DNA of 64,000 nucleotides from Salinigranum marinum (GCF_024228675.1 NZ_CP100464.1:62001-126000); one strand, 5' to 3'. Shown: positions 39,681 through 60,715, numbered from the stretch's first letter. Notes: generated by a model not told the origin, from the sequence alone. Program-made: numbers and translations.

Positions 39681-41153
39681 TTACATCGCGTTCCGGATCT
39701 GGGCCTTGACGACGCTTTCTATCTCCGACTGTGAAACCGTGTCGATCCGAGAGTCTTCGCGAAGCGTTTCGAGAATCGTCTCGGGTCGTTCTGCGAACCG
39801 GAACTCGAGGAACATGCCCGAGCTGGGACCGTGGCTGCGACGCTCGAATTCAACAAGCGAGTACGTCGTCAGCTCCTTCATTTTGTTGACATATGTCTCT
39901 TGGTGGTACTGATCGGCGTCGATGGCGTCGGTGAGGAATTGGTACACTCTGTACCCAGTGGTACTTCGGGCTGTACTGTCGGAGGTCTGAGCGGCGACCG
40001 CCGCGGTCGCGAAGAGGCAGAGTTTCTTTTGCGTACTGATGCCCCGAACTACCTCGAGGACGCGGTTCTTTTCGACTTTGTCCTGTGCTTTTCGGACGTG
40101 GATTTCTCGGATACGGTCGTTTCCTTCGCGTTCAGCGAGTTCGCCAGCCACTCGCATCAGGTCGATTGCCTTTCGGGCGTCACCATGCGTCTGAGCTGCA
40201 AACGCCGATGCGAGCGGTATCACGTCATCTTCGAGAACATCCTCGAAGAACGCGTCCTGGCGACGGCGCAGGATCGCCTGGAGTTGATTCGCGTCATAGT
40301 CATCGAAGTGGACGTCCTCGGGAGTGAACGAACTCAGCGCGCGGCTTCCGACCGATTCCATCATTTTCGTGTCGTTGGAAATAGCGACGACGGAGATGTG
40401 AGCGCTGAGATCATCGTTGGCGCCGGCTCGCGAGAGCTGGTAGAGAAGTCTCGAAAAGGCTGGTTCTTTCTTATCGCGACGGCCAACGAGCATATCGAGT
40501 TCGTCGAGCACGAACACCGCCGAGTCGAAGTTCTCGTTGACGATCCGGTAGAGTTCGTCCCACTTCTCCTTGGTCGCCACCCCGTGTTTGGGGACTTCGA
40601 CCTCGACGCCGGCCTCGTTGGCAGCTTGTTTCGCGAGTTCGTACACGGCGACTCCCAGCGTGTCGAGGTCCTGGCAGTTCACCTCGATGGTGCCAAAGCG
40701 GATATCTCGAGTTTCACAGATGCGGCTGATGTTGTGACAGACGGCCTTCGTGATGAGTGACTTTCCAGTCCCCGACGGACCGTACAAGAAGAGGTTCGGG
40801 GGTTTGTTGTCTCCGAGAGCCACACGGAGCATCTTGGTCACCTCTTGCAGTTGGTCGTCACGACCAACGATTCGGTCCTCTTCGACGACGTGTGTCGGGT
40901 CGAGAAGGGCTCGTTCGCGGATGAGGCGGTTCTGTTCGTCGAATTCGAGCAACATATCCTCGATCGACTGTGACCCCTCCCCGGAGCTGTCTCGCTCCGG
41001 TCGTTCGGAGCTGTCATCATCAACTTCCGAAAACTCGTCCCCGACCTCAGCCTCGTGATCGGTACCCGCCGACGAGAGATCGGCCTGCGTCGTCTGCTCG
41101 TCCTCCGTCGAATCCCCCTCTTGAGAAGATCCCTCGGAGTCTTCGGTAGCCAT
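39681..41153 (-). CDS. orc1: Orc1/Cdc6 replication initiator
   Basis: A 490-aa protein from ATG 41153; a start nine codons earlier (41180) is possible. An acidic disordered N-terminus (about 75 residues) precedes the AAA+ part: RALLDPTHVVEEDRIVGRDDQLQEV, Walker A LYGPSGTGKSLITKAV near residue 130, Walker B VFVLDELDMLVGRRDK, sensor 1 VVAISND, and GDARKAIDLMR (sensor 2). A C-terminal winged helix follows (VYQFLTDAIDADQYHQETYVNKMKELTTYSLVEFE). It should bind the flanking repeats and load the MCM helicase. The repeats on both sides identify this as the replicon's own initiator. Confidence 0.92.
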   Translation of the reverse strand: MATEDSEGSSQEGDSTEDEQTTQADLSSAGTDHEAEVGDEFSEVDDDSSERPERDSSGEGSQSIEDMLLEFDEQNRLIRERALLDPTHVVEEDRIVGRDDQLQEVTKMLRVALGDNKPPNLFLYGPSGTGKSLITKAVCHNISRICETRDIRFGTIEVNCQDLDTLGVAVYELAKQAANEAGVEVEVPKHGVATKEKWDELYRIVNENFDSAVFVLDELDMLVGRRDKKEPAFSRLLYQLSRAGANDDLSAHISVVAISNDTKMMESVGSRALSSFTPEDVHFDDYDANQLQAILRRRQDAFFEDVLEDDVIPLASAFAAQTHGDARKAIDLMRVAGELAEREGNDRIREIHVRKAQDKVEKNRVLEVVRGISTQKKLCLFATAAVAAQTSDSTARSTTGYRVYQFLTDAIDADQYHQETYVNKMKELTTYSLVEFERRSHGPSSGMFLEFRFAERPETILETLREDSRIDTVSQSEIESVVKAQIRNAM

Positions 41154-41190
41154 GTCACGAACCTTACTCGCATGGGACAAAAGTGTTCCC

Positions 41191-45528: not shown

Positions 45529-47178
45529 CTAACCGCCACCAGCGAAGAATAGCTGTAGAAAGAGCATCCCGACAGCTATGGCGAGGAATACGAACACCAG
45601 TACCCAAGGGTCAGTGAGAACTCGTCTCAACGTCAGCTTGGACTCGGACGACGGAGTCCGGGGTAACGACGCGGAGACTTCATCATCGTCCCTCCGTACA
45701 TCCTCACGCTCGGTGGACGGGCTACTGTTCTCCAGCATCTGGCTTCCATGACCGTCAGCTTCTGTGACTGTCTGCGCGTTCTCGAGAGAGACTGCTGTTT
45801 CTGGGTTGGACATCAGTGCCCCCTCGTCAACAACAGGACGGCCATGGCCGAGTACGCCCTCTACCCCGCACGTCACGCACGCCGCGTTCGGGTGGGTGGT
45901 GACCGAGACCAGTTCGTCGGAACGTCCATCGAAGCGAAGGTAGTCTGCTGGGTGATCGTACTCAGTGACTACCTTCGTCACGGTGCGCGTAATGGCGGAG
46001 GCGACAACACCGTTGAGCGGGGCGATGGCAGGTTGTGGGGCTCGAACGTCAGCGTCGACGTACCCCCGCTGAATCTCCTCCTGGAGCTCGGCGTCGCCGA
46101 GTTGCTCGATCCGCAACTGTTCGGCATCACGGCGACCTAGACAGTCGAAACAGGCGGTCGCACCAGGGGCAACGAGCTGAACCAGGCCCCGTTCTTCGGC
46201 GATGCGATCGTCCGTTCCGTCCGTCTTGATCGCGGTCCCTCCATCGACGTAGGTGAGGAGGTGTCTGACGGCGAACTCGTTGAGGAAGAGACGCGCACCG
46301 AGACTATCGACAGCACCGACCAGCACGCGACAGGACCACAGCTCGGACACAGAGAGGTCCTGAACTCGGCACCGGCGAGTGATGACCTCAATACCAGTGT
46401 CGATCCGTTGGAGGTGGTCACCGACAACGTCTACCTTCGGTCGACCGATGTCTTCCTCATACGCCCCGTAGATGCGGGGGAGATTCGACCGCTCCACGCA
46501 ATCGTGGTCGACCAGCAAGAAGTTGCACACACCAAGCCGCGCGAGTTCGGTTGCGACGACCGAACCGAGCCCACCGAGACCGACGACGGCAATCTTGCTG
46601 TCAGCTAGTCGCTGCTGTCCCTCGAGGGATAGAGCCCTGATCGACCGATCGTACCGTTCCGTGTCGACCGTACTAGTCGGCGCGTCTCTCGTCATGCAGT
46701 CGAGCGGTGGCGAGAGCTTCCAGTCCCCACTGATGGTGACCGGGAGCGGTCGTCGCTCTCCTGCTCCGAAATCTTCGTACACCGCTGTGGCCATCCCATG
46801 GGAGCCAATGACTGCGAAGGCGAGGGTAGATTCGGGGCAGAGCCCACCGAGCCACTCCGCCATGGCGGTCATGATCTCGTCGTCACGTTCGCTGAACTCG
46901 GGATCGCGACTCCAAGGGTGGCTGTGGACCAGAACTGGCACTTGGCCTCTGTTGAGACACTGACCGAGACGGTCGCGCTCGCGCTTGAGCGCTGGGCGAA
47001 CGGCGTCAGCCTCTTGCACGGCACACGCGGCGTCGTCGAAGACGTGCACCGCTCGACCGAGCAAGTCGCCGTTTGCTTGACGTGTGCAGTACAATAGTGC
47101 ACACCGCTCTAGTCTATCGTCACGGATCAGTTCCTCTCGCAGTGTCTGGACTTGGCTCGTGGTGAGTATCAGTTGCAT
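45529..47178 (-). CDS. JAB peptidase-E1 (ThiF) fusion with C-terminal membrane helix
   Basis: A 549-aa protein. Residues 1-155 are a JAB/MPN metallopeptidase: Glu24 and VHSHPWSRDPEFSERDD with H85, H87, S96 and D99 as zinc and catalytic residues. Residues about 175-450 are a ThiF/E1 adenylating domain: YDRSIRALSLEGQQRLADSKIAVVG, LGGLGS, VDHDCVERSNLPR, and two CxxC zinc pairs (CFDC, CVTC). The MoeB-type Cys position appears to read PQPAIAPLNG, without Cys. After an acidic linker a single helix (WVLVFVFLAIAVGMLFLQLF) anchors it in the membrane. It should both activate and deconjugate the ubiquitin-like protein encoded upstream. It is the last gene of a three-gene operon, 21 bases after the E2-like gene. 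Confidence 0.88.
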   Translation of the reverse strand: MQLILTTSQVQTLREELIRDDRLERCALLYCTRQANGDLLGRAVHVFDDAACAVQEADAVRPALKRERDRLGQCLNRGQVPVLVHSHPWSRDPEFSERDDEIMTAMAEWLGGLCPESTLAFAVIGSHGMATAVYEDFGAGERRPLPVTISGDWKLSPPLDCMTRDAPTSTVDTERYDRSIRALSLEGQQRLADSKIAVVGLGGLGSVVATELARLGVCNFLLVDHDCVERSNLPRIYGAYEEDIGRPKVDVVGDHLQRIDTGIEVITRRCRVQDLSVSELWSCRVLVGAVDSLGARLFLNEFAVRHLLTYVDGGTAIKTDGTDDRIAEERGLVQLVAPGATACFDCLGRRDAEQLRIEQLGDAELQEEIQRGYVDADVRAPQPAIAPLNGVVASAITRTVTKVVTEYDHPADYLRFDGRSDELVSVTTHPNAACVTCGVEGVLGHGRPVVDEGALMSNPETAVSLENAQTVTEADGHGSQMLENSSPSTEREDVRRDDDEVSASLPRTPSSESKLTLRRVLTDPWVLVFVFLAIAVGMLFLQLFFAGGG

Positions 47179-47199
47179 AAAAAATTGGGAAGACCGCGC

Positions 47200-47616
47200 T
47201 CAGTCGTGGAGCGGGTTGTTCGAGTGTGGCGATTCAAGCGAAATCTCGAGGATGTCGAGCATCTTCACCAGGTTGTGACGAGACGGGTTCCAGCGAACGT
47301 GATGGATACAGTACTTCGTCCACCGTCGGCCACCGGCCTCAACGGTGTGGTACATCGTGTGAGGTACCTCCCCCCTGAAACGCATGCCAGCGGAGATGTA
47401 CACGTCTGGCTGAGTCCTTGGGTACGTCTCATGCAGGTTGAAGAGTACGTCACCTCGGCGAGAACCATTGGTGTTCTCCCATCCGCGTGGGAACTGGAAC
47501 TGGCCAAGCGTGACGACGGGACTCTTTGTGAGGTCGTACGACAGACTCGCCTGTTGACGGGCCCCGACAGCCGCTTCAAGCGACCGGATGTCTCCGACCG
47601 CACGTGCCCGGTTCAT
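47200..47616 (-). CDS. E2-like ubiquitin-conjugating protein
   Basis: A 138-aa protein with the core E2 order: a strand pair before LHETYPRTQPDVYIS (the E2 YPxxPP-like step), PHTMYH in place of the HPN region, then GGRRWTKYCIHHVRWNPSRHNLVKMLDILEISL. Cys103 is followed at +6 by WNP, as the catalytic Cys of Ubc proteins is followed at +8 by WSP, and then by the usual last helix. This fits the prokaryotic E2 families described from genome comparison. It lies 7 bases after the Ubl gene and 21 before the E1/JAB gene. Assignment is by motif and context; no search was done. Confidence 0.7.
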   Translation of the reverse strand: MNRARAVGDIRSLEAAVGARQQASLSYDLTKSPVVTLGQFQFPRGWENTNGSRRGDVLFNLHETYPRTQPDVYISAGMRFRGEVPHTMYHTVEAGGRRWTKYCIHHVRWNPSRHNLVKMLDILEISLESPHSNNPLHD

Positions 47617-47623
47617 TCACCGT

Positions 47624-47884
47624 TCACCCGAACACGTAAGAGTCCGCGAGCGGCTGCGCTTGGAGTTCAGCTCCCTCGTCGACCTCTGTGGCCACGACGT
47701 CGTCGTCGTTGAGGGCTTCGAACCCCTGGGGTGTGCGGTAGGTCAGGATCTCGTCTTCGCTGAGACCCACTTGGGCCTTCAGGTCGGCGGCTGTCGTATC
47801 GGGACCGGCAGTAACCCGCCTTCCCTCAACGACAACGTCGATGTTCTTTGCCGGTTCATCTTCGAACAGTTCTCCGAGGCTCAT
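47624..47884 (-). CDS. Ubiquitin-like beta-grasp protein
   Basis: An 86-aa protein from ATG 47884; a GTG at 47920 and an ATG at 47974 are possible earlier starts with a Pro/Ser-rich extension. The core reads NIDVVVEGRRVTAG, TTAADLKAQVGLSEDEIL, TYRTPQGFEALNDDDVV and EVDEGAELQAQ, the strand-strand-helix-strand-strand order of ubiquitin. The chain ends SYVFG with a single C-terminal glycine. This terminus would be adenylated by the E1 domain and passed to the E2-like protein. It is the first gene of the operon. The fold call rests on pattern and context. Confidence 0.65.
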   Translation of the reverse strand: MSLGELFEDEPAKNIDVVVEGRRVTAGPDTTAADLKAQVGLSEDEILTYRTPQGFEALNDDDVVATEVDEGAELQAQPLADSYVFG

Positions 47885-48138
47885 GTTTGGGCTCGTTGGT
47901 GCGGACGTTGATTCGGCCACCCGATCAGGTGGAATCGGGAACGGGCCGGAGGGAATCAGAACCAGTGTCCGCATTGACTGGTCTCGTCTTGATCCCCACC
48001 ACACGCTTCGGCCGGGATTGTGGAGTAGTCTTCTTCGAAGCTGTTCAAAGTACCTACTAAGAGGAAGTTGGTTTATCACGGGTTGTTCGAACGGATTCGA
48101 AGAAAATGCTATTCAAAAAGAACACCACATGGATACTG

Positions 48139-48803: not shown

Positions 48804-49802
48804 ATGGCAGGCTACACGTACGGGCCGTCTGAGAACGAGTTAGTGATTAATATCACGTCTCAGATTCTGGCTCGCCTCAGCTCGTCGTTTTCCACAACTG
48901 CTGCTCTTGCCCCCACCCGTCGAGACGAAAACGTCCTCGGCTACGATGTAGACGTACTGGATCTACTCGGTATTGTACTACAATTCAAGCGGCCGAGTGT
49001 AGTGCATCATCGGACGCTCCCCTCAAAAATTTCGCAGTCAACCCCGTCCGCTCGCTTCCAGAGTAACATCCAACAGTGGATAACACTGCTGGCGAACTTC
49101 GACAGGGGCCAAGCCCTCTACGCAATTCCTCCAGTTCATACAGGTAACGAACTGCACAAAGCTCTTGACAAGACTGTGTTCGTCGATGCTCATGGGGTGC
49201 TCCCCGGCACCTCGCTTCTCTATTGCCCAAACCAATGTTGCACTCCTGGTGGGAAGACACTCGTTGAAGGGAAGATCAAAGACAGGCACTCGTTCGATGG
49301 TCCAAAGTATGTGATTCCACCGGCGTTCGTCTATTGCTGGGAAGACGTTTCAACCGGGCTTGTAGAGGGGAATCTTGGGCTCAAGTTCTATGAAGCAGAC
49401 CCGAATATGGTGGGGCAAGAAGATCTACCAGCCGCAGAGAGGCGCCGAGTGACGGCGCAACTCAGAGACCTTCGCGATCGACTTGACAACTACGCAAAGG
49501 GAAACAGAGAAGCGGTGCTTGAGCGGGTCGAAATGATGCTCCGCTACTGGCGAAAACAACATCAAGAAGTAGACGTAGGGCAGCTCCAACCAACAGCCAC
49601 CCTCTTCGAACAACTGCGGGCTGCTGACGCCCTCCCTGTTGATGACAACCGAAAGTTCGCTGTCGACGAAGCAATCAGTGAAGTCTGTAATGAAGTACGA
49701 AGCGAAGCAAGCTTAAGCCCGGAAGATGGATCAGAGTTCCACCCCGCGACACACGCACTTCAGACAGCAGAGGCCGAACTCTGTATGCTCGGTAGTAAAT
49801 AA
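48804..49802 (+). CDS. Hypothetical protein with nuclease-like N-terminal motif
   Basis: A 332-aa protein. The N-terminal segment ENELVINITSQILARL, SFSTTAALAPTRRDENVLGYDVDVLDLLGIVLQFKRP has a D-x-n-Q-x-K arrangement like that of PD-(D/E)XK or Vsr-type nucleases. Near residue 138 are YCPNQCC cysteines. A coiled-coil segment lies near 210-250 (AERRRVTAQLRDLRDRLDNYAKGN). It stands alone between the ubiquitin-like operon and the 7-deazaguanine cluster. A restriction role is possible but weakly supported. Confidence 0.5.
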   Translation: MAGYTYGPSENELVINITSQILARLSSSFSTTAALAPTRRDENVLGYDVDVLDLLGIVLQFKRPSVVHHRTLPSKISQSTPSARFQSNIQQWITLLANFDRGQALYAIPPVHTGNELHKALDKTVFVDAHGVLPGTSLLYCPNQCCTPGGKTLVEGKIKDRHSFDGPKYVIPPAFVYCWEDVSTGLVEGNLGLKFYEADPNMVGQEDLPAAERRRVTAQLRDLRDRLDNYAKGNREAVLERVEMMLRYWRKQHQEVDVGQLQPTATLFEQLRAADALPVDDNRKFAVDEAISEVCNEVRSEASLSPEDGSEFHPATHALQTAEAELCMLGSK

Positions 49803-49965: not shown

Positions 49966-50661
49966 TTAAACCTCGGGCATATAAGACGGGCGCTCAGCGT
50001 ACGGAATCGGGTCTTCAACACCTGCTCTCTCGAATGCCTGGAGTCGGAACGCACAGGAATCACAGGTCCCACACGCTGGTTCCTCTTCTCGGTAGCACGA
50101 CCACGTGTGTTCGTACGGGACGCCGAGTTCGAGTCCACGTTCGGCGATATCTGTCTTCGACCACTCGACGAACGGTGCCTCTAAGCTGATCTCGGTCTCT
50201 GGTTTCGTTCCGACGTCGATCACCTGCTGGAACGCCTCAAAGAACGCCGGTCGACAGTCAGGGTACCCGGAGAAGTCTTCCGAGTGTGCTCCGATGAAGA
50301 TCGCCGATGCATCCTGTGCTTCGGCGTAGGACGTTGCCATCGAGAGCAGGTTCGCGTTCCGGAACGGCACATACGACGTCGGGATTTCGTCACTTTCCAT
50401 ATCTGCGTCTTCGACCTCAATCTCGTCATCGGTGAGGGACGACGCACCGATACGAGCGAGGTGTTCCGTCTCGACGTGGAGGAAATCTTTGGCATCGACG
50501 ACCTCGGCGAGTTTCTGTGCACACTCGAACTCCTTTGTCTCCGTGCGTTGGCCGTACGAGGTATGTATGAACAGGGGGTCATACCCTCGCTCCATCGCTT
50601 CGTAGACTGCTGTTGCGCTGTCCATTCCGCCGGATACCAGAATTACTGCGTTGTCGTTCAT
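49966..50661 (-). CDS. queC: QueC, 7-cyano-7-deazaguanine (preQ0) synthase
   Basis: A 231-aa protein from ATG 50661, which overlaps the folE stop (ATGA). The PP-loop is VSGGMDSATA at residues 9-18; SYGQRTETKEF, YVPFRNANLLSMA and IGAHSEDFSGYPDCRPAFFEAFQQ are QueC hallmarks; and four Cys of the zinc site are in WSCYREEEPACGTCDSCAFR. QueC makes preQ0 from 7-carboxy-7-deazaguanine with ATP and ammonia. It is the last gene of the folE-queD-queE set. Haloarchaea use preQ0 for archaeosine in tRNA; this set, beside DpdA, more likely feeds DNA modification. Confidence 0.95.
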   Translation of the reverse strand: MNDNAVILVSGGMDSATAVYEAMERGYDPLFIHTSYGQRTETKEFECAQKLAEVVDAKDFLHVETEHLARIGASSLTDDEIEVEDADMESDEIPTSYVPFRNANLLSMATSYAEAQDASAIFIGAHSEDFSGYPDCRPAFFEAFQQVIDVGTKPETEISLEAPFVEWSKTDIAERGLELGVPYEHTWSCYREEEPACGTCDSCAFRLQAFERAGVEDPIPYAERPSYMPEV

Positions 50662-51269
50662 GATCTCGTGTTCTTGTCTATCGCTCGCTCGAACTGCCGT
50701 TTCACCGCGTCCGTGACCTGACCCTCGACCGCCCGGGTCGTCGTCTCCGTTGCCCGTTCGACACCGCGCATCGCCTCGCACAAATGCGTCGCCGTCAGTT
50801 CAACGATGACGCCCGTCGCCCCGATTTCTGTTCGGAGCCCTTCAGCGATGTCTCGCGTCAACGATTCTTGCATCGTTAGTCGTCGGGACTGCCAGCGGAT
50901 GTACCGTGGAAGCTTCGAAAGTCCGACGACCGCTCCATTGGGAACGTACGCAACGTGTGCAGTACCGTAATACGGTAATAGGTGGTGTTCGCAGAGGCTA
51001 TACACTGGGATACCTGTCTTGATGACTGTACTGGTATCCTCACTCGGAAAGGTCCGCATGGTCGGTTTTGCGACCTCGCGATGGCCCTCGGTCAGCGTCT
51101 CGAACGCTTGTGGGACTCGACGCTGCCACGTGTCCTGGAGATGCTCTTGATCGGAGTCAGCGCCAACTGCCTCCAACAGGAGTCGTGTTCCTTCCTGTGC
51201 TTTCTCCCAATCGATTTCACTGAACGATTCGGAAGTCGATTGGAGTTCCCCATTAGTATCTCCTGGCAT
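50658..51269 (-). CDS. folE: GTP cyclohydrolase I (FolE)
   Basis: A 203-aa protein from ATG 51269; a longer frame reaches 51365 but would overlap queE. Family motifs are clear: PVYSLCEHHLLPYYGTAHVAYVP with zinc-binding Cys and His, GLSKLPRYIRWQSRRLTMQE, and THLCEAMRG with the second Cys. The reaction makes 7,8-dihydroneopterin triphosphate from GTP, the first step to preQ0. It sits between queE (2 bases) and queC (overlap). Most archaea use the unrelated MptA or FolE2 type for this step, so the presence of type I here is noteworthy and would fit transfer of the whole set. Confidence 0.93.
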   Translation of the reverse strand: MPGDTNGELQSTSESFSEIDWEKAQEGTRLLLEAVGADSDQEHLQDTWQRRVPQAFETLTEGHREVAKPTMRTFPSEDTSTVIKTGIPVYSLCEHHLLPYYGTAHVAYVPNGAVVGLSKLPRYIRWQSRRLTMQESLTRDIAEGLRTEIGATGVIVELTATHLCEAMRGVERATETTTRAVEGQVTDAVKRQFERAIDKNTRS

Positions 51270-51271
51270 GA

Positions 51272-52057
51272 TTAGGTTCCTGGGGCGTCGTTCCAGAGAT
51301 CGACGTGCAGACGTGGCGTGTACCGGTAGCCGTGCTCCAGAGCCAGTTCTGCAGTAATCTCGCACGTCTCTTCGAGACGCTCACGGGTCATCCCTTCAGG
51401 CATGAGGAGGATGTCGTGATTCTCGATTTGAGCACTGCTCGTGGACCGAAGTGTCTCAACGAGTTCTTCGATTTCTTGCATGTCCTCTCGCCCGGTCACC
51501 ACGAACTTCAGCTGGAAGTCGTATGCCTCGACCAGTGAGGCGAGCGAGTCGTAGTCGAGACGGTCTTGCTCGTGACGCTCCTCCCACACACCGACGTCAG
51601 CGTTGCCGCCAGCCGGTGGTTGTGCTTCACTCGGTGTCGATGACGCGAGTTTCGGACTGACCGAAACGAGGTCGATCGGTGCCTTACGGAAAATCGTTCC
51701 GTTCGTTTCGACCGTCGTGTGATAGCCTTGATCGGACAGGTTGGTGAGTAACGATTCGATGCCGTCGTGCATCATGGGCTCGCCACCTGTCACGACGACG
51801 TGGTCGCTTTCGTGCTTGGTTACCTCGGTGACAATATCCGTCACATCGAACCAGCCGTGCGTCGGCTCCCACGAGGTGTGATACGAATCGCAGAACCAGC
51901 ATCTAAGGTTGCAGCCGGAGGTGCGAACGAACGTGCTTGGGACACCTGCGAGTTTGCCCTCTCCCTGGAGTGAGTGGAACAGTTCGTTGATTGGAAGAGC
52001 ATCGTTGCCGGCCTCTGCGGGAGAATCAAGCGCTCTCGCGTCTGCATTGACGGGCAT
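51272..52057 (-). CDS. queE: QueE, 7-carboxy-7-deazaguanine synthase (radical SAM)
   Basis: A 261-aa protein. The LFHSLQGEGKLAGVPSTFVRTSGCNLRCWFCDS segment has the CxxxCxxC cluster motif, followed by the cis motif VVVTGGEPMMH, TVETNGTIFR and VSVSPKLAS, the QueE set. It turns 6-carboxy-tetrahydropterin into 7-carboxy-7-deazaguanine. The insertion ASSTPSEAQPPAGGNADVGVWEER after the substrate loop is long but common in haloarchaea, as far as I recall. It lies 5 bases after queD. Confidence 0.93.
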   Translation of the reverse strand: MPVNADARALDSPAEAGNDALPINELFHSLQGEGKLAGVPSTFVRTSGCNLRCWFCDSYHTSWEPTHGWFDVTDIVTEVTKHESDHVVVTGGEPMMHDGIESLLTNLSDQGYHTTVETNGTIFRKAPIDLVSVSPKLASSTPSEAQPPAGGNADVGVWEERHEQDRLDYDSLASLVEAYDFQLKFVVTGREDMQEIEELVETLRSTSSAQIENHDILLMPEGMTRERLEETCEITAELALEHGYRYTPRLHVDLWNDAPGT

Positions 52058-52062
52058 ATGGA

Positions 52063-52527
52063 TTAGAAGCCCGAACAGAGTTCGCTCGTTTCAGCCACCG
52101 CTACAGACACGTCCGAGATGGTGTCGGGAAGGAGCTCCAGCATCCGATTTTCGAGCACCACTGCCATCACCTCCGCTGTCGGTGGGTGGTCGAGCACGAC
52201 GACGGCGTCTCCGTCACCTGACTGGTCGAACGCCTCGATGAGTGGGTCGCCTCTCTCCAGGAGGAACCGGTGATCCCACTCATCTATTATCGAGGTAATA
52301 TCGCCCTTGTCAACGACCCACCCCTCCTCAGTCAGGCTGCCAGTGACTGAGACCGTGACCTCGTAGTTGTGGCCGTGCGGTCGTGAACACTTCCCGTCGT
52401 GATGGAGGAGGCGGTGACCCGAACTGATACGAATCGGACGGTCACGCCCGACGTGGAGTGTCCGCTCTCCAGCGTTAGAGAGCGCCGACCGATCTGTCTC
52501 GTCTTCTTGCAGTACACCCTGAGTCAT
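52063..52527 (-). CDS. queD: QueD, 6-carboxy-tetrahydropterin synthase
   Basis: A 154-aa protein. SSGHRLLHHDGKCSRPHGHNYEVTV contains the zinc His residues and catalytic Cys; DKGDITSIIDEWDHRFLLERGDP gives the catalytic Asp-His pair; PPTAEVMAVVLENRM and AVAETSELCSGF complete the family. QueD makes 6-carboxy-tetrahydropterin from dihydroneopterin triphosphate. It is the first of four genes, queD-queE-folE-queC, that encode the whole preQ0 route. The operon promoter should be in the gap up to 52616 or before the small gene there. Confidence 0.93.
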   Translation of the reverse strand: MTQGVLQEDETDRSALSNAGERTLHVGRDRPIRISSGHRLLHHDGKCSRPHGHNYEVTVSVTGSLTEEGWVVDKGDITSIIDEWDHRFLLERGDPLIEAFDQSGDGDAVVVLDHPPTAEVMAVVLENRMLELLPDTISDVSVAVAETSELCSGF

Positions 52528-52615
52528 ACCCGGGTATTATCCAGGTACTACTAAAGCGATGTGCCTTGGACTGAAAGTGAAATCCGTCTCGAGAACCGGT
52601 ACGGGAGCAGTTCGG

Positions 52616-52891
52616 TCACTCTGACTGACAGCGAACCGGACCGGAATTCCCTTCTTGCTTGTCGGCTGTGACTTCACACCGGAAGTAGTCCCCATTCGGG
52701 TAGATGAGAAATCGGTCCTCGTCGTCGTTCTCGATACGCTCTACCCCCGTGATAGACCAGTCTGCATCTTCGATACCATACCACGTGTAGTATTCCGACT
52801 CACCTGCGACGGCGAAATCGAGCGTACCCGTTCCACTTCCGAGGATGTGTTCAACTCGTTCGAGCACGACGTCGTCGGCGATCACTGGCAT
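52616..52891 (-). CDS. Small hypothetical protein upstream of queD
   Basis: A 91-aa protein from ATG 52891; an alternative start nine codons earlier is at 52918. It reads MPVIADDVVLERVEHIL, LDFAVAGESEYYTWYGIEDADWSITGVERIENDDEDRFLIYPNGDYFRC. The chain looks like a small beta barrel and is acidic in the haloarchaeal manner. It is divergent from the dpdA gene (start 53000). No family is known to me. It is on the same strand as and 88 bases before queD and may be part of the operon. Confidence 0.55.
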   Translation of the reverse strand: MPVIADDVVLERVEHILGSGTGTLDFAVAGESEYYTWYGIEDADWSITGVERIENDDEDRFLIYPNGDYFRCEVTADKQEGNSGPVRCQSE

Positions 52892-52999
52892 AGTACGAGA
52901 TGCCTCGCCTTCGTACATAAACCTGGAGACCAGTTTCGCTCTGGTTTGAGAGGATTCATTACCCAGAACGATTTACCACGTGTCGGTGACTATCTACCT

Positions 53000-55219
53000 G
53001 TGAGGTTCTACGTGCCCGAGTGGGATGATCGGGTCGATGCCGATTACGACTTCCTGCACGACGAGCACTCGACGCTCGGGACTGACGAGCGCGACCTTGC
53101 GTACATTTGGGACCTTTTCGATCGACAGACGACCCCGATCGACGGTGTGCTCCTCTCCCGAGAACAGGCCGAAGAAAGCGCAACGAAAGCAGAGCGCTTG
53201 ACCGAGAACGGGATCTATAACGCTCCGAAACTCGATATTCCGACATGGCTGCCGACGATCAGTGATTGCGGTGCGTGGGGATACAAATCGCTCCCGTTCC
53301 CTCCCTACGACAACGCCGAGATGCTTGATTTCTACGAGCAACTCGGTGTGACGACCGGTGTCACGATCGATCACCTCGTGCTCGGCGCTGGCCACACTGC
53401 ACGGCTATACCTGAATAAGCGGGCGTTCAGTGGTGAGTTCAGTAAATCGGATTTGCAAGCCGAGTTGACGGATGCGGTCGACGTGATGGTCGATACCTGG
53501 CCGAACGGGGACCAGAGTTCGGCTCGAACGTGGCCGTCGTACGTCGAGTCTGAAGAACCCTCCATCTACGGCGTAACTGACGTCCACCCGTTCACCGAGG
53601 ACGACTTCGCAGGGGATGTCGATGCGATCCTCGACCGCCTTCGTGACGACCCGAGGGCAGTCTACCGGGACGACGATATGCAGTATCGGTACGATCTGAC
53701 GCTCCGAAACGCTCGAGACATGGCCGAGCGCTACGAGGCAGGCGACTACTCGTTCCGTCTAATGGCGGCCGTCCAAGGATGGGATCCGGAATCGTACGTC
53801 GAAGCGACGAAAGAGGTCTTGAACCTCGGGTATCAATACGTCGGTATCGGCGGCGTTGCGGGGAGTCGCGAGGAAGACGTCGAAGAGATCGTTACAGCAA
53901 TCGGAAACGAAATCAAGACCTTCGAACGAGAGCTGGGGACCCGCGTCGATACACACGTCTTCGGGTTCGCCAAGACCGGTGCCTTCGAGACGATCGGTCG
54001 GACTGGGATGACGAGTTTCGACAGCGCGAGTATGCTCCGCGCCGCGTGGACTGGTGGGCAGAACTATCATCTCGACAGCGACGACCGATACGACGCCGTT
54101 CGCGTCCGATATCCGACTCACCGTGATGATCTCCCGACGAGTATTCAGAAAGCACTCCGCGGACAGGAGATGCTCTATGCGCTCCGGGCGTTCGGTCGCA
54201 ACGAATCTATCGCCGACGCGCTCTGGACGTGGTACGACCGTGCGGAACAGGCACTGGCGGGTATCGAACCGTATCTCCGTGAACATCGACACGACGATCG
54301 CTTCGATGTCCCCTACATTCAGGACACAGAGGAGGCATTCCGCTCGGGATACGAACACGGACGGGCATTCAGAGCGAGTTTCGGAGATCCGCTGAGTACG
54401 AAACTGGTCAAACTGCTCCGAGACGACGATCCGGAGGATCCGATTGCGTTTGCCGAGTACGAGGACCACCTTCGGACTGCCACTGATATCTTCGAGGACT
54501 GGACGCCGACCCGCGTTGAGGACATCACAAACCGGGAGACGGATGCGGTCGGGACATTAGAAGCTCTCTGGCCGCTCGTCGAAGCGTATGCCACGTGGCC
54601 CCCGATCGACGACGGTGACCTCCTCGACGAGTACCGGGAACTGCTCAACGCACGGCCATGGGAGCGGTGTGACTGTCCTATCTGCGAAGAGTTCGGGATC
54701 GAGGTCGCGATATTCCGTGGGAACAATCGGAACCGACGTCGTGGATTCCACAACACACGGCGATTCTACGACCAGTTCGAGCGAGAGCTCCCGAAACTAC
54801 TCGTCGTGACGCGTCCGTCGACCTCACTAATGGGTGCTGGAACTGTCGAAGACTACCTCCGAGATGATCGACCTGCGTTCTGGAACGCAGTTCATGACCT
54901 TCCAGTCGCAGAAATCGGGACGATGACCGCAAATGGGTTCCACGAATGGTGGGCCGACAGGCCTGGAATCGTCTCCTTCGAACCCGGTCGACTGGCCGAC
55001 GAACTCATCTCTGCGGGAGAACGGTATCAAGACGTATTCATCGACGGCCGACACTGGACTCCCGATGAATCGGTTCGCGAGCGACTCGCGGAGGTGGACT
55101 GCACCTTGCACGTGTGTGATGAACCGAGCGAGCTTCGATCCAGTGTACTGAACCGACTCAGATACGGGGAACAGTTTCTTCCCCAGTATCTCGTTCAATC
55201 GGGATTGACGGAGTACTGA
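53000..55219 (+). CDS. dpdA: DpdA, TGT-like DNA base-exchange enzyme
   Basis: A 739-aa protein from GTG 53000, chosen because MRFYVPEWDDRVDADYDFLHDEH is the typical DpdA beginning and a GGTGA lies upstream; a longer frame would overlap the divergent small gene. The TGT-fold residues are SDCGAWGY (88-95) with catalytic Asp, FPPYDNAEMLDFYEQLGV, GYQYVGIGGVAGS, HVFGFAKTG and SFDSASML with the nucleophile Asp. Zinc ligands are C557, C559, C562 and H584 (CDCPIC, then HN), the TGT pattern CxCxxCx21H. DpdA exchanges guanine in DNA for preQ0. The preQ0 operon is divergent from it, and the DUF6884 gene follows 3 bases on. Confidence 0.87.
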   Translation: MRFYVPEWDDRVDADYDFLHDEHSTLGTDERDLAYIWDLFDRQTTPIDGVLLSREQAEESATKAERLTENGIYNAPKLDIPTWLPTISDCGAWGYKSLPFPPYDNAEMLDFYEQLGVTTGVTIDHLVLGAGHTARLYLNKRAFSGEFSKSDLQAELTDAVDVMVDTWPNGDQSSARTWPSYVESEEPSIYGVTDVHPFTEDDFAGDVDAILDRLRDDPRAVYRDDDMQYRYDLTLRNARDMAERYEAGDYSFRLMAAVQGWDPESYVEATKEVLNLGYQYVGIGGVAGSREEDVEEIVTAIGNEIKTFERELGTRVDTHVFGFAKTGAFETIGRTGMTSFDSASMLRAAWTGGQNYHLDSDDRYDAVRVRYPTHRDDLPTSIQKALRGQEMLYALRAFGRNESIADALWTWYDRAEQALAGIEPYLREHRHDDRFDVPYIQDTEEAFRSGYEHGRAFRASFGDPLSTKLVKLLRDDDPEDPIAFAEYEDHLRTATDIFEDWTPTRVEDITNRETDAVGTLEALWPLVEAYATWPPIDDGDLLDEYRELLNARPWERCDCPICEEFGIEVAIFRGNNRNRRRGFHNTRRFYDQFERELPKLLVVTRPSTSLMGAGTVEDYLRDDRPAFWNAVHDLPVAEIGTMTANGFHEWWADRPGIVSFEPGRLADELISAGERYQDVFIDGRHWTPDESVRERLAEVDCTLHVCDEPSELRSSVLNRLRYGEQFLPQYLVQSGLTEY

Positions 55220-55222
55220 CTG

Positions 55223-55930
55223 ATGCGATTTCTTATTATCGACCAGTGTTCTGGAAGCAAGGAGGTACCCAACAACGCATCGGAGTTCAGTGCCGCTGAC
55301 ATCGATGAACACGGTCGAGAAGGATTGCTTGCTCGCGACGGGGTCCCAGCGATTCCAGCGAGACAACTGTATACGGGACGTCAGCAAGGGTACATCGACT
55401 CGGCTGTCGACCGACTTCGAGCCGCGGGAGACACTGTCGACCGGTTGTACATCAGTGCTGGCTTCGGTTTAGTCGATGAGGAAACTGAACTACCCCCCTA
55501 CAACGTGACGTTCGCTGGGATGAACTCGTCCGCTATCGACGAACGAGCGACTCGACTGGGGATTCCAGCTGACGTTCGAGAGGCCGTGCAAGCAACCCCC
55601 CCGTATGACATCGTCGTCTTGGCACTCGGGAGTGACTACTATCGTGCCTGTGCTGTCGAGAGTGTGCTTGATGCGATTCCATCTGAGACTCTTGGAGTCA
55701 TTTTCAATCAGGAAGCACTTGCAACCGAGAGGGAACACATTGTCTCAATTCCCGCCAGGACAACCGAGGCGAAGGAACATGGTGCGATTGTCGTTGCATT
55801 AAAAGGGAAATTTCTCCAGAACTTGGCCGATCATCGAAGCAGAGGGGCAGCTATGGAGAAACTGTCGGATCTCGTCGAATACTGTACGACAGAACCGACG
55901 ACACAAACAGGACTCAGCGAATACGACTAG
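55223..55930 (+). CDS. DUF6884/YaaA-like protein, DpdC candidate
   Basis: A 235-aa protein. Near the start DQCSGSKE, then PARQLYTGRQQGYIDSAV, YISAGFGLVDEETELPPYNVTFAGM and VVLALGSDYYRAC follow the DUF6884/YaaA-like order. In bacterial dpd clusters the DpdC protein, from the YaaA/DUF328 superfamily, processes preQ0 in DNA to a further 7-deazaguanine. The position three bases behind dpdA fits such a role, but this protein could instead do another step or only bind DNA. The C-terminal 40 residues are helical. Confidence 0.72.
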   Translation: MRFLIIDQCSGSKEVPNNASEFSAADIDEHGREGLLARDGVPAIPARQLYTGRQQGYIDSAVDRLRAAGDTVDRLYISAGFGLVDEETELPPYNVTFAGMNSSAIDERATRLGIPADVREAVQATPPYDIVVLALGSDYYRACAVESVLDAIPSETLGVIFNQEALATEREHIVSIPARTTEAKEHGAIVVALKGKFLQNLADHRSRGAAMEKLSDLVEYCTTEPTTQTGLSEYD

Positions 55931-56066
55931 GCGACTTGGGTACAATCCCAAGGTAGCGATTGTGTTCCAGATCGGTCGTCGGATAGAATCGTTTTACAGA
56001 TACGACCAATTTGCCATATAGTCTTAAGGACAGTTGTTAAGACAATCGGCCCTAAATTCAGTGCAA

Positions 56067-56549
56067 ATGACAGCTAATGTCTTTTTGGTGCCGTGCGACC
56101 CGGGGAATTTCGATCGAACAGTCCTCTCGCAAGTAAATCTGACTGAGATTTCGAAGACCCCGGACCCGATTGCTGATCTGACTTCGGTACGATTCTGGGG
56201 AGCGAGGGACGGTGAGCGGAATAAGAATTATTTTGAAAAGATGAACCGCGGTGATCTTGTGCTGTTCTATCAAGATGGAGCGTACGTTGGCATCGGGAAC
56301 GTTGGACGAACATTTGTGGACGAGGAGAAGTGGGCTAGTACGACATTCTGGCAGAATGCGCCGTCAAAACTTATATACACTATTGAAGAGTTCACTGAAT
56401 TATCTATTCCACGGGGTGCAGTAAATCGCCTGTTTGATTACGGACCGGACTACTATCCGCAGGGACTGACACGGGTTGCTGATAACCGCGTCTCGAATAC
56501 AGTGAGAACGATTCGCCGTGCGCTAGAGATGTATAATGAGAAGCACTAA
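56067..56549 (+). CDS. EVE/PUA-like modified-base-binding candidate
   Basis: A 160-aa protein from ATG 56067. It has VFLVPCDPGNFDRTVL, VRFWGARDGERNKNYFEKMNRGDLVLFYQDGAYVGIGNVGRTF, then FWQNAPSKLIYTIEEF and the tail LFDYGPDYYPQGLTRVADNRV. The GDLVLFYQDGAYVGIGNV hairpin is the EVE/PUA-type pattern. EVE domains bind modified cytosine or similar bases and often feed a nuclease. This one is stand-alone. A place within a DNA-modification island suggests that it senses modified or unmodified DNA. The next gene downstream is a convergent GIY-YIG protein. Confidence 0.62.
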   Translation: MTANVFLVPCDPGNFDRTVLSQVNLTEISKTPDPIADLTSVRFWGARDGERNKNYFEKMNRGDLVLFYQDGAYVGIGNVGRTFVDEEKWASTTFWQNAPSKLIYTIEEFTELSIPRGAVNRLFDYGPDYYPQGLTRVADNRVSNTVRTIRRALEMYNEKH

Positions 56550-56586
56550 TCTCAGAGCTCAGTGCGTCTGAGGCAGTAGAACGTAT

Positions 56587-57333
56587 TTACTCGAAATCAC
56601 TCAGGTCCGATTGGTCGCTTAACCCTCGTAAGTGGGCGAATGCTTCTGGGTTATAAGGGAGTCCATCTGTGTTCAGCAGTATTTCTGGAAATAGTTCCCA
56701 AGTCAAGGCGATAAGCTGAAGCTCCAATTCTTCCAGAAATGGAGAGGCTCCCGTGCCCGGTGTGTATGGGCCAACACCGCCGACTTCCCAAGCTTTCATC
56801 CAAAGGTAGACTTCCTGGTTGAGACGACGGGATTTCGGCTCAAACAAAGTTCGTATCCATCGCCCCTTCGACGTATTTGTCACACTTCCATATGATTCCC
56901 AGGATGAATTGAAATATATCTGACTTAGTTCACCTAAATGAAATGCGGTTCCATACCCCCATCTCGCAAACCGAGACTTTCGATCCCGAACGGACTTCAG
57001 ATTCGGATTGAGTTTGTACCCATTAGACTCAAACTTCCCCGATTTCCCAATGTACAGAGGAGTTACATCTGCATTTGAATCGATCCAGTACATCACATAA
57101 ATGACCCCTTCGTAGCGTCGTCCTCGTTCGTGGAAGTCGCTTTCAACCTTCTCTGCCTCATCAATTACCAGTTGTTCCACCTCCCCACTCCGCTTGAGAA
57201 CGTCACGTTCATGTGAACCAGTACCAAATCGCTCTGTCTGGACAACAAGGTCTGAATTGGTTTCGAAGAGAGGAACACTATTATCAAACTCGTGGATATC
57301 AACCCACTGTTCCCAGACCTCAGCTTTACTCAT
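56587..57333 (-). CDS. GIY-YIG nuclease-like protein
   Basis: A 248-aa protein. Residues 76-100 contain GVIYVMYWI (GIY-like), then PLYIGKSGKF (YIG), with the usual spacing, followed by SRFARWGYGTAFHLGELS around 120-138 with the Arg expected on the next helix. The acidic residue in LNQEVYLWMKAWE could be the catalytic Glu. The first 70 residues are a unique helical part. The gene is on the opposite strand from its neighbours and lies between the DNA-modification genes. It may be a restriction nuclease that spares 7-deazaguanine DNA or attacks foreign modified DNA. Confidence 0.6.
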   Translation of the reverse strand: MSKAEVWEQWVDIHEFDNSVPLFETNSDLVVQTERFGTGSHERDVLKRSGEVEQLVIDEAEKVESDFHERGRRYEGVIYVMYWIDSNADVTPLYIGKSGKFESNGYKLNPNLKSVRDRKSRFARWGYGTAFHLGELSQIYFNSSWESYGSVTNTSKGRWIRTLFEPKSRRLNQEVYLWMKAWEVGGVGPYTPGTGASPFLEELELQLIALTWELFPEILLNTDGLPYNPEAFAHLRGLSDQSDLSDFE

Positions 57334-57566
57334 AAAGGAGACCTATCGAAGACCATGATAAAAGTTCTCAGCACGGTATCAGTGTAGATTTTCTAGTCGT
57401 TTTTATTAATTCGCTCCACCGTTCGATATTTGTTTCTGTTCATTTACATCGGGATAAAAATTGAAACATTGGATCAGTAGGCGGATGATTCATTCAACAA
57501 CTTCATAAATTGTTCCGATATTGAGTTCATATTTTTAATGATCCCAGCTAATCCGAGCGCGTCGCC

Positions 57567-58601
57567 ATGTTGTACCGACAACGAACACTCGACACTCCCC
57601 ACGGACCCTTGGAAACACCGGTTCTGTTTCCCGTGCGGAACATCGGGAAGCGGTCGAGTGACAACACCCCAGAGTACGCCGACAGTATCCCAGACCTCCG
57701 GACTGCGATGGTCAATGCCCGGTCAATCCGGCAACGCGACCCTCAGTGGGACCGTTTGCGGGCGGGCGCGACCCTCCGAGAAGAGATGGGGGTCCCGAGT
57801 AATACCATTCTCTTCGCGGACAGCGGAGGCTTTGACTTCCATGCCGCAACTGTCGATACCACCCCAGCACGAACCTTAGAAACCCAAAACCAACTCGACG
57901 CAGACATCTACGGAACAGTTGATCTGCCTCTCTCGCGAGAGAATCGTGCCGCTAAGAATCAACGTCGAATCGAACAGAGTACCAGATTCGCGATCGAAGC
58001 GAGCGACACACACGATGGGGACGCACTTCTCTTCGCGAGTGTCCATGGCTACGACCCAGAAACAGTCGGTAATGTGGTGCGCTATCTGGAGCGTCACGGC
58101 GACTTCGATGGGTATGCCCTCGGCAGTATGGTCCCGATTCGGACGGATTACGAGAAAGTAACTAAGCTGATACTTGCTGCCAGACGGGCGACTGACAAAC
58201 ACCTCCACGTATACGGGCTAGGAGGGATCGTTTATCAGCCACTATTACTATATCTTGGAGTCGACAGTTTCGACTCCTCAGCTTTTATCCGAAGCGCAGG
58301 AAATCGGAATTATCTCGTACCTGGATTCGGTGGTACGGAATTACACCAAATCGAGGAGTTAGAGCACCTCCCTTGCTCATGTCCGGTCTGTTGGTCCCGG
58401 TCACTCTCGACGATACGGGAGAATCGAGACCTCTTGACCGAACATAACCTCTGGTCACTGGTTACCGAACTCCGCAGATTCCGGTATATGGCGGCGAGTG
58501 GGGAAGACATCGAGTCGTATCTTGATCTTCGATTCAGCGGGAACGAAGTGACCCAGCGGGCGTACCGAATTGCCAAACAGCAAGTCCGGAGGCTCACATG
58601 A
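57567..58601 (+). CDS. Second TGT-fold enzyme, short form
   Basis: A 344-aa protein. It has DTPHGPLETPVLFPV at the start, LFADSGGFDFH (D85), TVDLPLSREN, ALGSMVPIRTDYEKV, HVYGLGG and LGVDSFDSSAF with the nucleophile Asp, then zinc ligands C270, C272, C275 and H293 (CSCPVC...H). These are the residues of TgtA/bTGT-like enzymes, while the length is shorter than archaeal TgtA, which has a PUA domain. The gene overlaps the wHTH gene after it (ATGA). Its partner genes and the absence of a PUA domain favour a DNA rather than a tRNA substrate; not proven. Confidence 0.8.
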   Translation: MLYRQRTLDTPHGPLETPVLFPVRNIGKRSSDNTPEYADSIPDLRTAMVNARSIRQRDPQWDRLRAGATLREEMGVPSNTILFADSGGFDFHAATVDTTPARTLETQNQLDADIYGTVDLPLSRENRAAKNQRRIEQSTRFAIEASDTHDGDALLFASVHGYDPETVGNVVRYLERHGDFDGYALGSMVPIRTDYEKVTKLILAARRATDKHLHVYGLGGIVYQPLLLYLGVDSFDSSAFIRSAGNRNYLVPGFGGTELHQIEELEHLPCSCPVCWSRSLSTIRENRDLLTEHNLWSLVTELRRFRYMAASGEDIESYLDLRFSGNEVTQRAYRIAKQQVRRLT

Positions 58602-59500
58602 GTGAGCGACCGACGGTGCGACCGGTGACCCTCGCCAGACTCGTCGAGGTGACGCACGTCTGCGAGGGTGCGAGTCACACGACAGTCGAAATCGAAGAAA
58701 ACCTCGACGTGAGCCATCGGCGAGCACGAGAGACCATCCTCGAAGCACTCCGAATCGGACTCCTTGGCGAGTACGATCCCGATGATGAGGACGAATCTGC
58801 GTGGTATATGACCACATCAGTCGGGATTGAGTTCCTGACTGCGGTGCGCGCCGAGGATTGGTCGCGGGTAAGTAGGATCCTCGAAACCCGGAGTCGCCAC
58901 TATAAGGCTCTCTTGAGAACGCTGGAAGCGACCGCACCTGCTGATCTCGACACGGTCCTTGAGGAACTAGAAACCCGAGAGGAACACACGGGTAGATCGT
59001 ACAATCAGACGAGTATCGAGGTACTCGGTGACTGGGCCGAGAGACTCGGGCGCGTCCAACGTAACGCGTTCACCGGATCGTACTATCCCGTCGAGCGGGG
59101 AAATTCTTCGGCGAACTTTCCGCATGTCCTGCTGTCGGTGTTCGACGATCTCGAACAGACTGCTGGAGTCTCACTCCGCCAGCGATATCTGTCGATTCCA
59201 AAACTCCGGGAGCACTTCTGTGAGCGCGTCGGTTGCCCGCGTCGGGCGTTCGACCAGGCGCTTCTGGCATTGGCGCAACAGAACGTCGGCAAGGTGGAAC
59301 TGTCGGGTGCCCCCTTCGATACCGGCGCGAAGGACGCAGCCCTCGGGATCAAAGAGATGACACTGGCCGAGAGCGGCGGCTTGGTTTCGACCTCACAGTC
59401 GACTGAGCAGGTGATGGCCGGTGTGGAACAGTTCGGCAAACAGTACTACTACCTCGCGATTCACGAGCGCGATCTCGTGTACACCACAGACGATGACTGA
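58598..59500 (+). CDS. wHTH protein of the TGT operon (DpdG-like?)
   Basis: A 300-aa protein. The N-terminal 75 residues form a winged helix (TLARLVEVTHVCEGASHTTVEIEENLDVSHRRARETILEALRIGLL). A second HTH-like unit lies near residue 205 (IPKLREHFCERVGCPRRAFDQALLALAQQNVGKVELS). It overlaps both neighbours by a few bases: TGT before and ATPase after. Bacterial dpd clusters contain proteins of this type and size (DpdG), but whether this is a true homologue needs a profile search. It may recruit the exchange enzyme or act with the ATPase. Confidence 0.5.
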   Translation: MSERPTVRPVTLARLVEVTHVCEGASHTTVEIEENLDVSHRRARETILEALRIGLLGEYDPDDEDESAWYMTTSVGIEFLTAVRAEDWSRVSRILETRSRHYKALLRTLEATAPADLDTVLEELETREEHTGRSYNQTSIEVLGDWAERLGRVQRNAFTGSYYPVERGNSSANFPHVLLSVFDDLEQTAGVSLRQRYLSIPKLREHFCERVGCPRRAFDQALLALAQQNVGKVELSGAPFDTGAKDAALGIKEMTLAESGGLVSTSQSTEQVMAGVEQFGKQYYYLAIHERDLVYTTDDD

Positions 59501-60659
59501 AACACCTTTCACAATCACGGATGAACCGCGCGATTACTCCCAGTTCGGACTCGAAGTGAACCCGTTCCCGTACAGTCCGGTTCCGGACGACGATCCCGAG
59601 CTGTACTGTGGACAGGAGCACGCCACCCGGGCGATCAGTGATACCGTTTCGACGATGCTGAGCACGGGTAAGTCGAAACACCTCGTCATCACTGGAAAGT
59701 ACGGCAACGGAAAGTCACACACGCTCAAGTACACCCGGTCGCTGGTCCGCGACCGCGACGATGTCGTCGTCGGGTACGTCGCCCAACCCGGAGAAGGGTT
59801 CCGTGACATCTACCACGAGTTCATGTACGACCTCGGGTTCGACCGGGTGCAGACACTTGCGTACGAGTTCTTGACCGTCGTCACACGAGACGTGACTGAG
59901 GAGGAACCGAGCGACGCCAAGGATACCAGACGACTCATCGACGACGGTGAAGTCCTACTCTCTGAACTCGTGCCGACCGCGATTCAGCGGTTGAACGACG
60001 TCACGAAGTTCGCGGACTTCTCTCGAGCGATCGTCCATATGATCTACGAAGACACCAATCTCTACTCGTGGCAGTGGCTCACCGCCGAAGGAATCCGATA
60101 CGAGCAACGCAAAGAGATGGAGATTCACAGCGCGTTAGACGACGACACCTCGAGCGTCCGTGCGTTCACTGCACTGAAGAACCTTCTTCTGGAGTTGGGC
60201 TATACGGGCGTCTTCGTCTTCGTCGACGAGTTCGAGAGCATCGCGCGACTATCGCCGAAAGACGAGCAGACGACGCTGAACAGTATCCGCCATCTCATGG
60301 ATCAGAACAGCCACGGGTTGTGTATCCTGTTTGGGTGTGCTCCTGAGGTATGGCAAGACGTAATGAGCGAGTACCACGCCTTTTCCGAGCGGATCGGTCA
60401 GGAGGTGGCACTTCGACCGTTGACCGACGAGCACATCGTCAATCTCGTCTCTTCGTATCTGGACTCAGCTAGGTCGGACAGTGGCGCTGGTATCGACCCG
60501 TTCGAGAGGGAGTGTCTCCAATTGATCCATCAGCGGTCTCAAGGAAACGTCCGCCAGGCCATTTCGTTGTGTAGTCGAGTCTTGGACGCGGCTGTAGATG
60601 ACGGTAAAGCGACAGTGGAGGGAGAGTACGTCCAAAACGTCTTGACAAATGGAGAGTGA
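59493..60659 (+). CDS. AAA+/ORC-like ATPase of the TGT operon
   Basis: A 388-aa protein from ATG 59493, overlapping the previous gene by eight bases (ATGACTGA). After YSQFGLEVNPFPYSPVPDDDP, as in ORC/TniB/ExeA-type ATPases, comes Walker A TGKYGNGKSHTLKYT near residue 70, Walker B VFVFVDEFESIARL near 250 and a C-terminal RSQGNVRQAISLC sensor 2. BREX BrxC/BrxD and DpdH-type ATPases share this look. It might regulate modification or restriction by sensing DNA. It ends the three-gene operon. Confidence 0.7.
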   Translation: MTETPFTITDEPRDYSQFGLEVNPFPYSPVPDDDPELYCGQEHATRAISDTVSTMLSTGKSKHLVITGKYGNGKSHTLKYTRSLVRDRDDVVVGYVAQPGEGFRDIYHEFMYDLGFDRVQTLAYEFLTVVTRDVTEEEPSDAKDTRRLIDDGEVLLSELVPTAIQRLNDVTKFADFSRAIVHMIYEDTNLYSWQWLTAEGIRYEQRKEMEIHSALDDDTSSVRAFTALKNLLLELGYTGVFVFVDEFESIARLSPKDEQTTLNSIRHLMDQNSHGLCILFGCAPEVWQDVMSEYHAFSERIGQEVALRPLTDEHIVNLVSSYLDSARSDSGAGIDPFERECLQLIHQRSQGNVRQAISLCSRVLDAAVDDGKATVEGEYVQNVLTNGE

Positions 60660-60715
60660 GGTGATAATTCGATTCGACAAAAGATAGTTGGCATCACACA
60701 CTCTCATAGGAGGCT

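Follow-up and report, generated by a model that had tools for sequence, protein, structure and literature searches.

A three-gene operon on the minus strand of a Salinigranum marinum contig probably encodes a membrane-tethered archaeal sister type of the bacterial Bub (bacterial ubiquitination-like) systems, in which a ubiquitin-like protein (Ubl) would be conjugated through a thioester on an E2-like protein. The operon lies in the stretch of DNA analysed here, 64,000 nucleotides in length and referred to below as the window, and its three open reading frames, with intergenic gaps of 7 and 21 bases, were recovered by ORF reading exactly where an initial annotation of the same sequence had placed them (Table 1). 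The contig is non-chromosomal and measures 145,366 bp, in a genome of 4.9 Mb and four contigs. Since it also bears an Orc1/Cdc6 gene (39681-41180), it is likely a plasmid or minichromosome, in line with the plasmid-borne location proposed earlier.

Table 1. Coordinates of the operon and its parts in the window, and of regulator genes beside related operons.
Feature	Position	Strand	Remarks
Ubl gene	47624..47884	-	86 aa, single beta-grasp domain, end ...SYVFG
Codons of Ubl terminal F85-G86	47627-47632	-	nothing after Gly to trim
E2-like gene	47200..47616	-	138 aa; Prok-E2_E match, BubB-like fold model
Codon of candidate catalytic Cys103 of the E2	47308-47310	-	followed by x5-W-N-P
JAB-E1-membrane fusion gene	45529..47178	-	549 aa; ThiF, Prok-JAB and BubCD matches
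JAB (JAMM) domain, residues ~1-150	46729..47178	-	metal/catalytic E24, H85, H87, S96, D99
E1/ThiF domain, residues ~165-450	45829..46686	-	GLGGLG loop, D224, N232, R235, K248, D291
E1 zinc Cys 343, 346, 434, 437	within 45829..46686	-	two CxxC pairs (343/346, 434/437)
C-terminal membrane helix, residues 526-544	45547..45603	-	hydropathy call
Winged-helix regulator genes of related loci	L035 4050-4481; L037 11943-12530; L038 11275-11736; L039 7492-8034; L040 11541-12131		

The bacterial Bub operons (BubB and BubCD, as cited in PMC13373217; PDB 9ea4, 9eae and 9d59), or 'type 6e' polyUbl operons (Iyer, 2006; PMC1779556), share with the window the order Ubl-E2-(JAB-E1), in which an E2 of the Prok-E2_E/BubB type stands between the Ubl and an E1 fused to an N-terminal JAB. 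They also share a Ubl with an F-G end and an optional tail, and a patchy, often plasmid-borne, spread. The joining of JAB and E1 in a single chain, which the initial annotation had regarded as unusual, is already known as the standard Bub architecture and is the rule in type 6e (PMC1779556; PDB 9ea4). What is new here is the Cys at the E2 site, an E1 with no conserved Cys beyond its zinc ligands, the conserved membrane link and the presence of Cys-less second E2s. Two aspects go beyond the initial annotation: the contrast between Cys here and Ser in bacterial operons, and the membrane genes present in trans.

Sequence searches of Pfam, PADLOC, NCBIfam and PDB gave nothing significant for the Ubl, whose identification therefore relies on its fold, its context and its F-G end. 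Its AlphaFold model (pLDDT 85.4), built like that of the E2 from an alignment of the window protein with those of related loci, has the beta-beta-alpha-beta-beta order. Foldseek searches with this model returned ubiquitin-fold proteins, including the multi-ubiquitin proteins of Citrobacter and E. coli, so that the beta-grasp protein ending in Gly proposed in the initial annotation was recovered by the fold check set for it. The Ubl of Bub/type 6e operons belongs to Multiubiquitin (PF14452) and has one to three beta-grasp units; this family was matched by only 3 of 11 Ubl rows, and the window's single-domain Ubl was not among these. F-G stands at or near the C-terminus in all 17 haloarchaeal Ubls listed, and was found as well in the bacterial Ubls compared, multiubiquitin proteins included. 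The tail beyond it ranges from 0 to about 30 residues and is longest in Haloglomus. At L049 8245-8556, a Ubl with a Gly/Arg-rich tail of about 30 residues beyond F-G is likely a precursor that requires proteolytic maturation.

The E2-like protein barely passes the cut-off of the Pfam model Prok-E2_E (PF14462; 25.2 bits against 25, E 1.5e-5), and had no match in PADLOC or NCBIfam; single-sequence phmmer searches of the Ubl and of the E2 against the PDB yielded chance matches only. The AlphaFold model (pLDDT 90.6) is that of an E2, with C103-x5-WNP present as first described, and its top Foldseek match is BubB (9eae_C, E 7.6e-5, TM 0.72), far ahead of the eukaryotic E2s. A profile made from archaeal and bacterial E2s reached BubB in the PDB at 5e-7. 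The archaeal-only profile found the UEV of Vps23, a Cys-less E2 relative, at 6e-4 and did not find BubB, a result that counts against the reading preferred here.

At the active-site column, Cys occupies 17 of the 17 archaeal operons placed in the E1 tree (14 haloarchaeal and three from another class), being kept in one E2 of each haloarchaeal operon, and this conservation supports the E2 step that had been postulated. Among 12 aligned bacterial relatives the same column holds Ser in eight, His in three and Gly in one, the His assignments depending on this alignment, in which a Ser sits two residues earlier. Reading four more bacterial E2s by eye likewise revealed no Cys, which brings the bacterial count to 0 of 16 readable sites, a tally that leaves out the Bosea locus because its site is not assignable. 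The archaeal branch thus has the canonical E2 nucleophile where the bacterial branch has none. In Citrobacter BubB the residue is Ser, the bacterial Bub E2 having a Ser mechanism at this position, and a 2026 study by Ye and others is said to have described Bub conjugation as non-canonical chemistry. The E2-like domains of type 6e were earlier found to have 'lacked the conserved cysteine' and were deemed likely inactive (Iyer et al., 2006; PMC1779556).

These data also bear on whether the window simply holds an ordinary Bub/6e operon that happens to reside in an archaeon, with an incidental E2 Cys and transfer by the bacterial non-cysteine route. The identical gene order and JAB-E1 fusion, BubB and BubCD as best structural neighbours, and the Ser found at the E2 site of two archaeal relatives outside the group (L041 and L055) would all be accommodated by such an explanation. 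We consider it rather unlikely, since a neutral position would drift, and the Cys is invariant across both archaeal classes and disappears along with the Ubl Gly where there is no E1. The latter case is provided by two related genomes (G207 and G218), in which the 14 kb examined revealed a Ubl-E2 pair but no E1. The C-terminus of that Ubl is VFR and its E2 partner lacks the Cys; this joint loss, a natural control although a single event, ties the Ubl Gly and the E2 Cys to the E1. In addition, the DUF6527 gene, sometimes with a phosphotransferase gene, that follows JAB-E1 in most of the bacterial operons read was not seen beside the haloarchaeal operons in gene lists and in Pfam scans of selected neighbours. 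Given that the E2 carries the Cys which type 6e lacks and that no DUF6527 partner was seen, the operon is reported as an archaeal sister type of Bub, Bub-like in anatomy, and not as a Bub member. E1-less Ubl-E2 pairs were read at L102 5946-6784 and L103 6493-7124, with neighbours of 156, 389 and 482 aa, and their surroundings look like a different, repurposed operon.

The JAB-E1 protein matches ThiF (PF00899) at E 1.1e-41 and Prok-JAB at E 9.4e-5, the second under that model's cut-off, and among PDB entries it is closest to Citrobacter BubCD (9ea4, E 4e-22), with an alignment that runs from residue 3 to residue 397 (395 residues) and takes in both JAB and E1. The motifs by which the protein had first been recognised (HxHP...S..D, ThiF/E1 and two CxxC pairs) were all confirmed. 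The JAMM residues E24, H85, H87 and D99 are invariant, and S96 likewise save for one Thr, in the JAB-bearing proteins compared (13 haloarchaeal, three other archaeal and the bacterial relatives); in one haloarchaeal operon (G725) the E1 is without a JAB domain. Every E1 adenylation residue checked is invariant in the archaeal proteins where the domain exists. The CxxC zinc pairs of the archaeal E1 are absent from Citrobacter BubCD. A conserved catalytic Cys was sought in the E1 of the group, and none was found besides the four zinc ligands. An E1 thioester is therefore unlikely; the Ubl would instead pass straight from the adenylate to the E2 Cys, which is, as read from sequence, the only apparent thioester site of the system. 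The chromosome holds a separate ThiF-family gene, 34% identical over the E1 core to the JAB-E1 of the operon.

An E1 with no conserved catalytic Cys would also suit a sulfur carrier or modified peptide, in which JAB-E1 would activate a small ThiS/MoaD-like protein and the E2-like protein would be a structural partner, as ThiF, MoeB and UbaA, E1s of this lineage, serve sulfur transfer. This is very unlikely: no rhodanese domain and no biosynthetic genes were seen nearby, a conserved Cys E2 fold and a JAMM protease are foreign to such pathways, and the Ubl ends in FG, not GG.

The membrane helix of the window's JAB-E1 follows a polar linker of about 75 residues and the segment KLTLRR, and its Kyte-Doolittle mean of 2.79 is a hydropathy measure only; four sister proteins carry shorter hydrophobic tails (1.2-1.7), which constitute weaker evidence. 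These five loci with a fused tail form one clade (support 100/99). In seven of the nine loci without a fused helix, a small membrane-protein gene stands directly downstream of JAB-E1, starting between a 4-base overlap and 38 bases past the E1 stop. Against local gene content this placement has nominal P values of 1e-6 to 3e-4, which are only indicative because the gene caller was rough and the loci are related, so that independence is overstated. Two of the 14 loci (G293 and Haloglomus) have no membrane protein of either kind, fused or adjacent. With five fused tails and seven of nine adjacent genes, compared with bacterial loci in which the next gene is usually DUF6527 or a phosphotransferase, the membrane tie is a recurrent trait of the haloarchaeal type, and none was seen in the bacterial loci examined. 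The membrane anchor noted at first is therefore conserved, fused or as a neighbouring gene.

It could be argued that the helix or small membrane protein is itself the effector of a killing device, gated by Ubl conjugation in the style of abortive infection. Several of the trans membrane proteins that adjoin JAB-E1 have a common acidic C-terminus (for example, IEDxYRQ), a divergent winged-helix regulator gene lies beside the operon in five loci, and DpdA defence-type genes occur near two of the loci, all of which would agree with such a function. In the window's group, however, the enzyme carries its helix as a lone tail anchor, and no toxin family was matched, so the device is judged unlikely. 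The regulator genes, ArsR/MarR-like, stand beside the Ubl gene of operons without a fused helix (Table 1), and none was seen in the window. Right after the membrane-protein gene, L037 (8328-8630) and L069 (9294-9587) encode homologous Cys/His-rich proteins of 97-100 aa, which are candidate E3 or adaptor proteins.

In the preferred scheme of E2-dependent conjugation, the Ubl would be made with an F-G end that is either free, as in the window, or extended by a short tail open to trimming by the JAB. Its C-terminal Gly would be adenylated by the ThiF/E1 domain, and the Ubl would move from the adenylate directly onto the E2, forming a thioester with Cys103; the E2 would then hand it to a target, from which the JAB, on the same chain as the E1, would take it off. 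The C-terminal helix, or in sister operons the membrane protein encoded by the neighbouring gene, would hold the machine at the inner membrane face, and for this reason the targets would probably be membrane or membrane-arriving proteins.

By using a class-wide search of 391 genomes, 10 were found, the window's included, to carry the JAB-E1 of this group (E 1e-59 or better). Within the window's family the distribution is patchy, with 6 of 170 genomes, every one of a different genus. Altogether the searches yielded 14 haloarchaeal loci from several families, some on plasmids and others on chromosomes, and all with the Ubl-E2-E1 order. The hosts include Haloferax marisrubri, Natribaculum luteum, Natrinema sp., Halobellus captivus, Haloglomus halophilum, Halolamina pelagica and Natronococcus sp. 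The search for the same gene order in other haloarchaea, suggested in the initial annotation, thus yielded 13 further loci, and because the order recurs in them with the motif residues kept, the Ubl-E2-JAB/E1 arrangement is not due to chance. The operon was not found in the window's three congeners, nor on any contig of a viral collection by the locus search with the C-terminal E1 alignment. The related-locus search gave no relative with the full JAB-E1 as query and six loci with the C-terminal E1 alignment. The annotation of two haloarchaeal plasmids still lists both the Ubl and the E2 gene as 'hypothetical protein'.

Variants of the arrangement were also identified. Three genomes from another class of the phylum have a Ubl-E2 fusion adjoining JAB-E1. 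The single chain of Ubl and Cys-type E2 was read at L061 6427-8500, L062 6592-8707 and L063 6144-8244, with a DUF5788 gene after JAB-E1 in at least one of these loci. Four close relatives (Haloferax, Natribaculum, Halorientalis and Halolamina) have the order Ubl1-E2a-Ubl2-E2b-JAB/E1, in which E2a is without Cys and the Halolamina Ubl2 is frame-shifted in the assembly, and the G179 operon has one Cys E2 and one Cys-less E2. By analogy, such pairs recall the E2/UEV pairs, and a second Cys-less E2 with a second Ubl often separates the archaeal type from Bub. Remnants of Ubl1/E2a were sought upstream in the window and none were found, just a divergent gene at 48106. In the tree of E1 domains, the archaeal and bacterial sequences are split with support of 99/97, the bacteria forming one group; the tree is midpoint-rooted and therefore does not give the direction of the Cys/Ser change. 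A bolder proposal, which we put forward tentatively, is that of a distinct class in which a tethered, E1-Cys-free enzyme loads an E2 Cys from the adenylate where bacterial Bub uses Ser; in several members a Cys-less E2 partner would be added, as UEV is to Ubc13 in eukaryotes, and in some a small zinc-finger protein that might serve as an E3.

Other systems resemble the operon in part. In type II CBASS, Cap2/Cap3 likewise provide a ThiF-type E1, a JAB and an E2 Cys, but the E2 is fused to the E1, the JAB is separate and a CD-NTase is present, whereas the window's E2 is separate; the CBASS E1-E2 models match only the E1 part of JAB-E1 (residues ~166-406), and no CD-NTase was matched among the neighbouring genes scanned. 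Bil (BilABCD) also unites a Ubl, an E2 with a catalytic Cys, an E1 and a JAB in one operon. Its Ubl (BilA) is two-domain and its JAB (BilC) and E1 (BilD) are separate, whereas the window has one Ubl domain and a fused JAB, and the BilD profile matched the E1 part only, weakly (24.3 bits, 2.8e-6). The E1/E2/RING operon of Caldiarchaeum subterraneum is likewise an archaeal Ubl-E1-E2 set with a JAMM protease, but with eukaryote-like separate enzymes, a RING E3 and no JAB-E1 fusion, in a distant lineage (PMC5654768). The SAMP/UbaA system of Haloferax volcanii also has a ThiF-type E1 that activates a Ubl, and JAMM proteases, and differs in its GG end, stand-alone E1 and lack of E2 and JAB-E1 fusion; PMC11354881, citing Humbard (2010), states that SAMPs require no E2. 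Against the UbaA model NF047750, the window's JAB-E1 scored 74.7 bits, with a cut-off of 450.

Work on archaeal ubiquitin-like modification has haloarchaea as its model group, and the system there has been described as E2-free; a survey from 2010 had no E2-like protein to report from the archaea (PMC2948915). If haloarchaea that can be cultured, a Haloferax species among them, carry an E2-dependent operon, three questions become directly testable: how an E2 is loaded by an E1 without its own cysteine, how the E2 nucleophile changed between Ser and Cys inside a single pathway, and why the tagging of proteins is linked to the membrane.

As regards the genomic setting, queC-, folE-, queE- and queD-like genes were read from the sequence from 49966 of the window onwards, together with a DpdA (NCBIfam, 278 bits, cut-off 200) and, beyond it, a TGT-like gene, a BrxC/D-like ATPase and an HNH protein. 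The region 49966-61750, which also encodes a DUF6884-like protein and in which the HNH protein is an endonuclease, is likely an archaeal Dpd-type 7-deazaguanine DNA-modification/restriction cluster beside the operon. The G179 operon has a DpdA relative (59% identity) some 7 kb away. Since a cluster of this type adjoins the window's operon and DpdA recurs near another, a role in virus defence, or more widely in conflict with viruses or plasmids, would be plausible. A 332-aa protein with no Pfam match is encoded on the plus strand (48804-49802), in the interval that separates the Ubl operon from the Dpd cluster.

Two other haloarchaeal arrangements were observed. On plasmid-size contigs of three genomes (L042 5687-17484, and similarly L043 and L044), a cluster encodes a PLD nuclease-like protein, small, possibly Ubl-like/E2-like proteins, a 588-aa JAB-E1, DEAD/MZB helicases and an RNase H-like protein, and is possibly a separate Ubl-linked mobile defence system. 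A plasmid system at L055 4563-7595 and L113 1062-4095 consists of an E2/UBC protein with a long N-terminal part that is helical and possibly Ubl, a JAB-E1 and a KTSC-domain protein; the E2 site is of the Ser type in L055.
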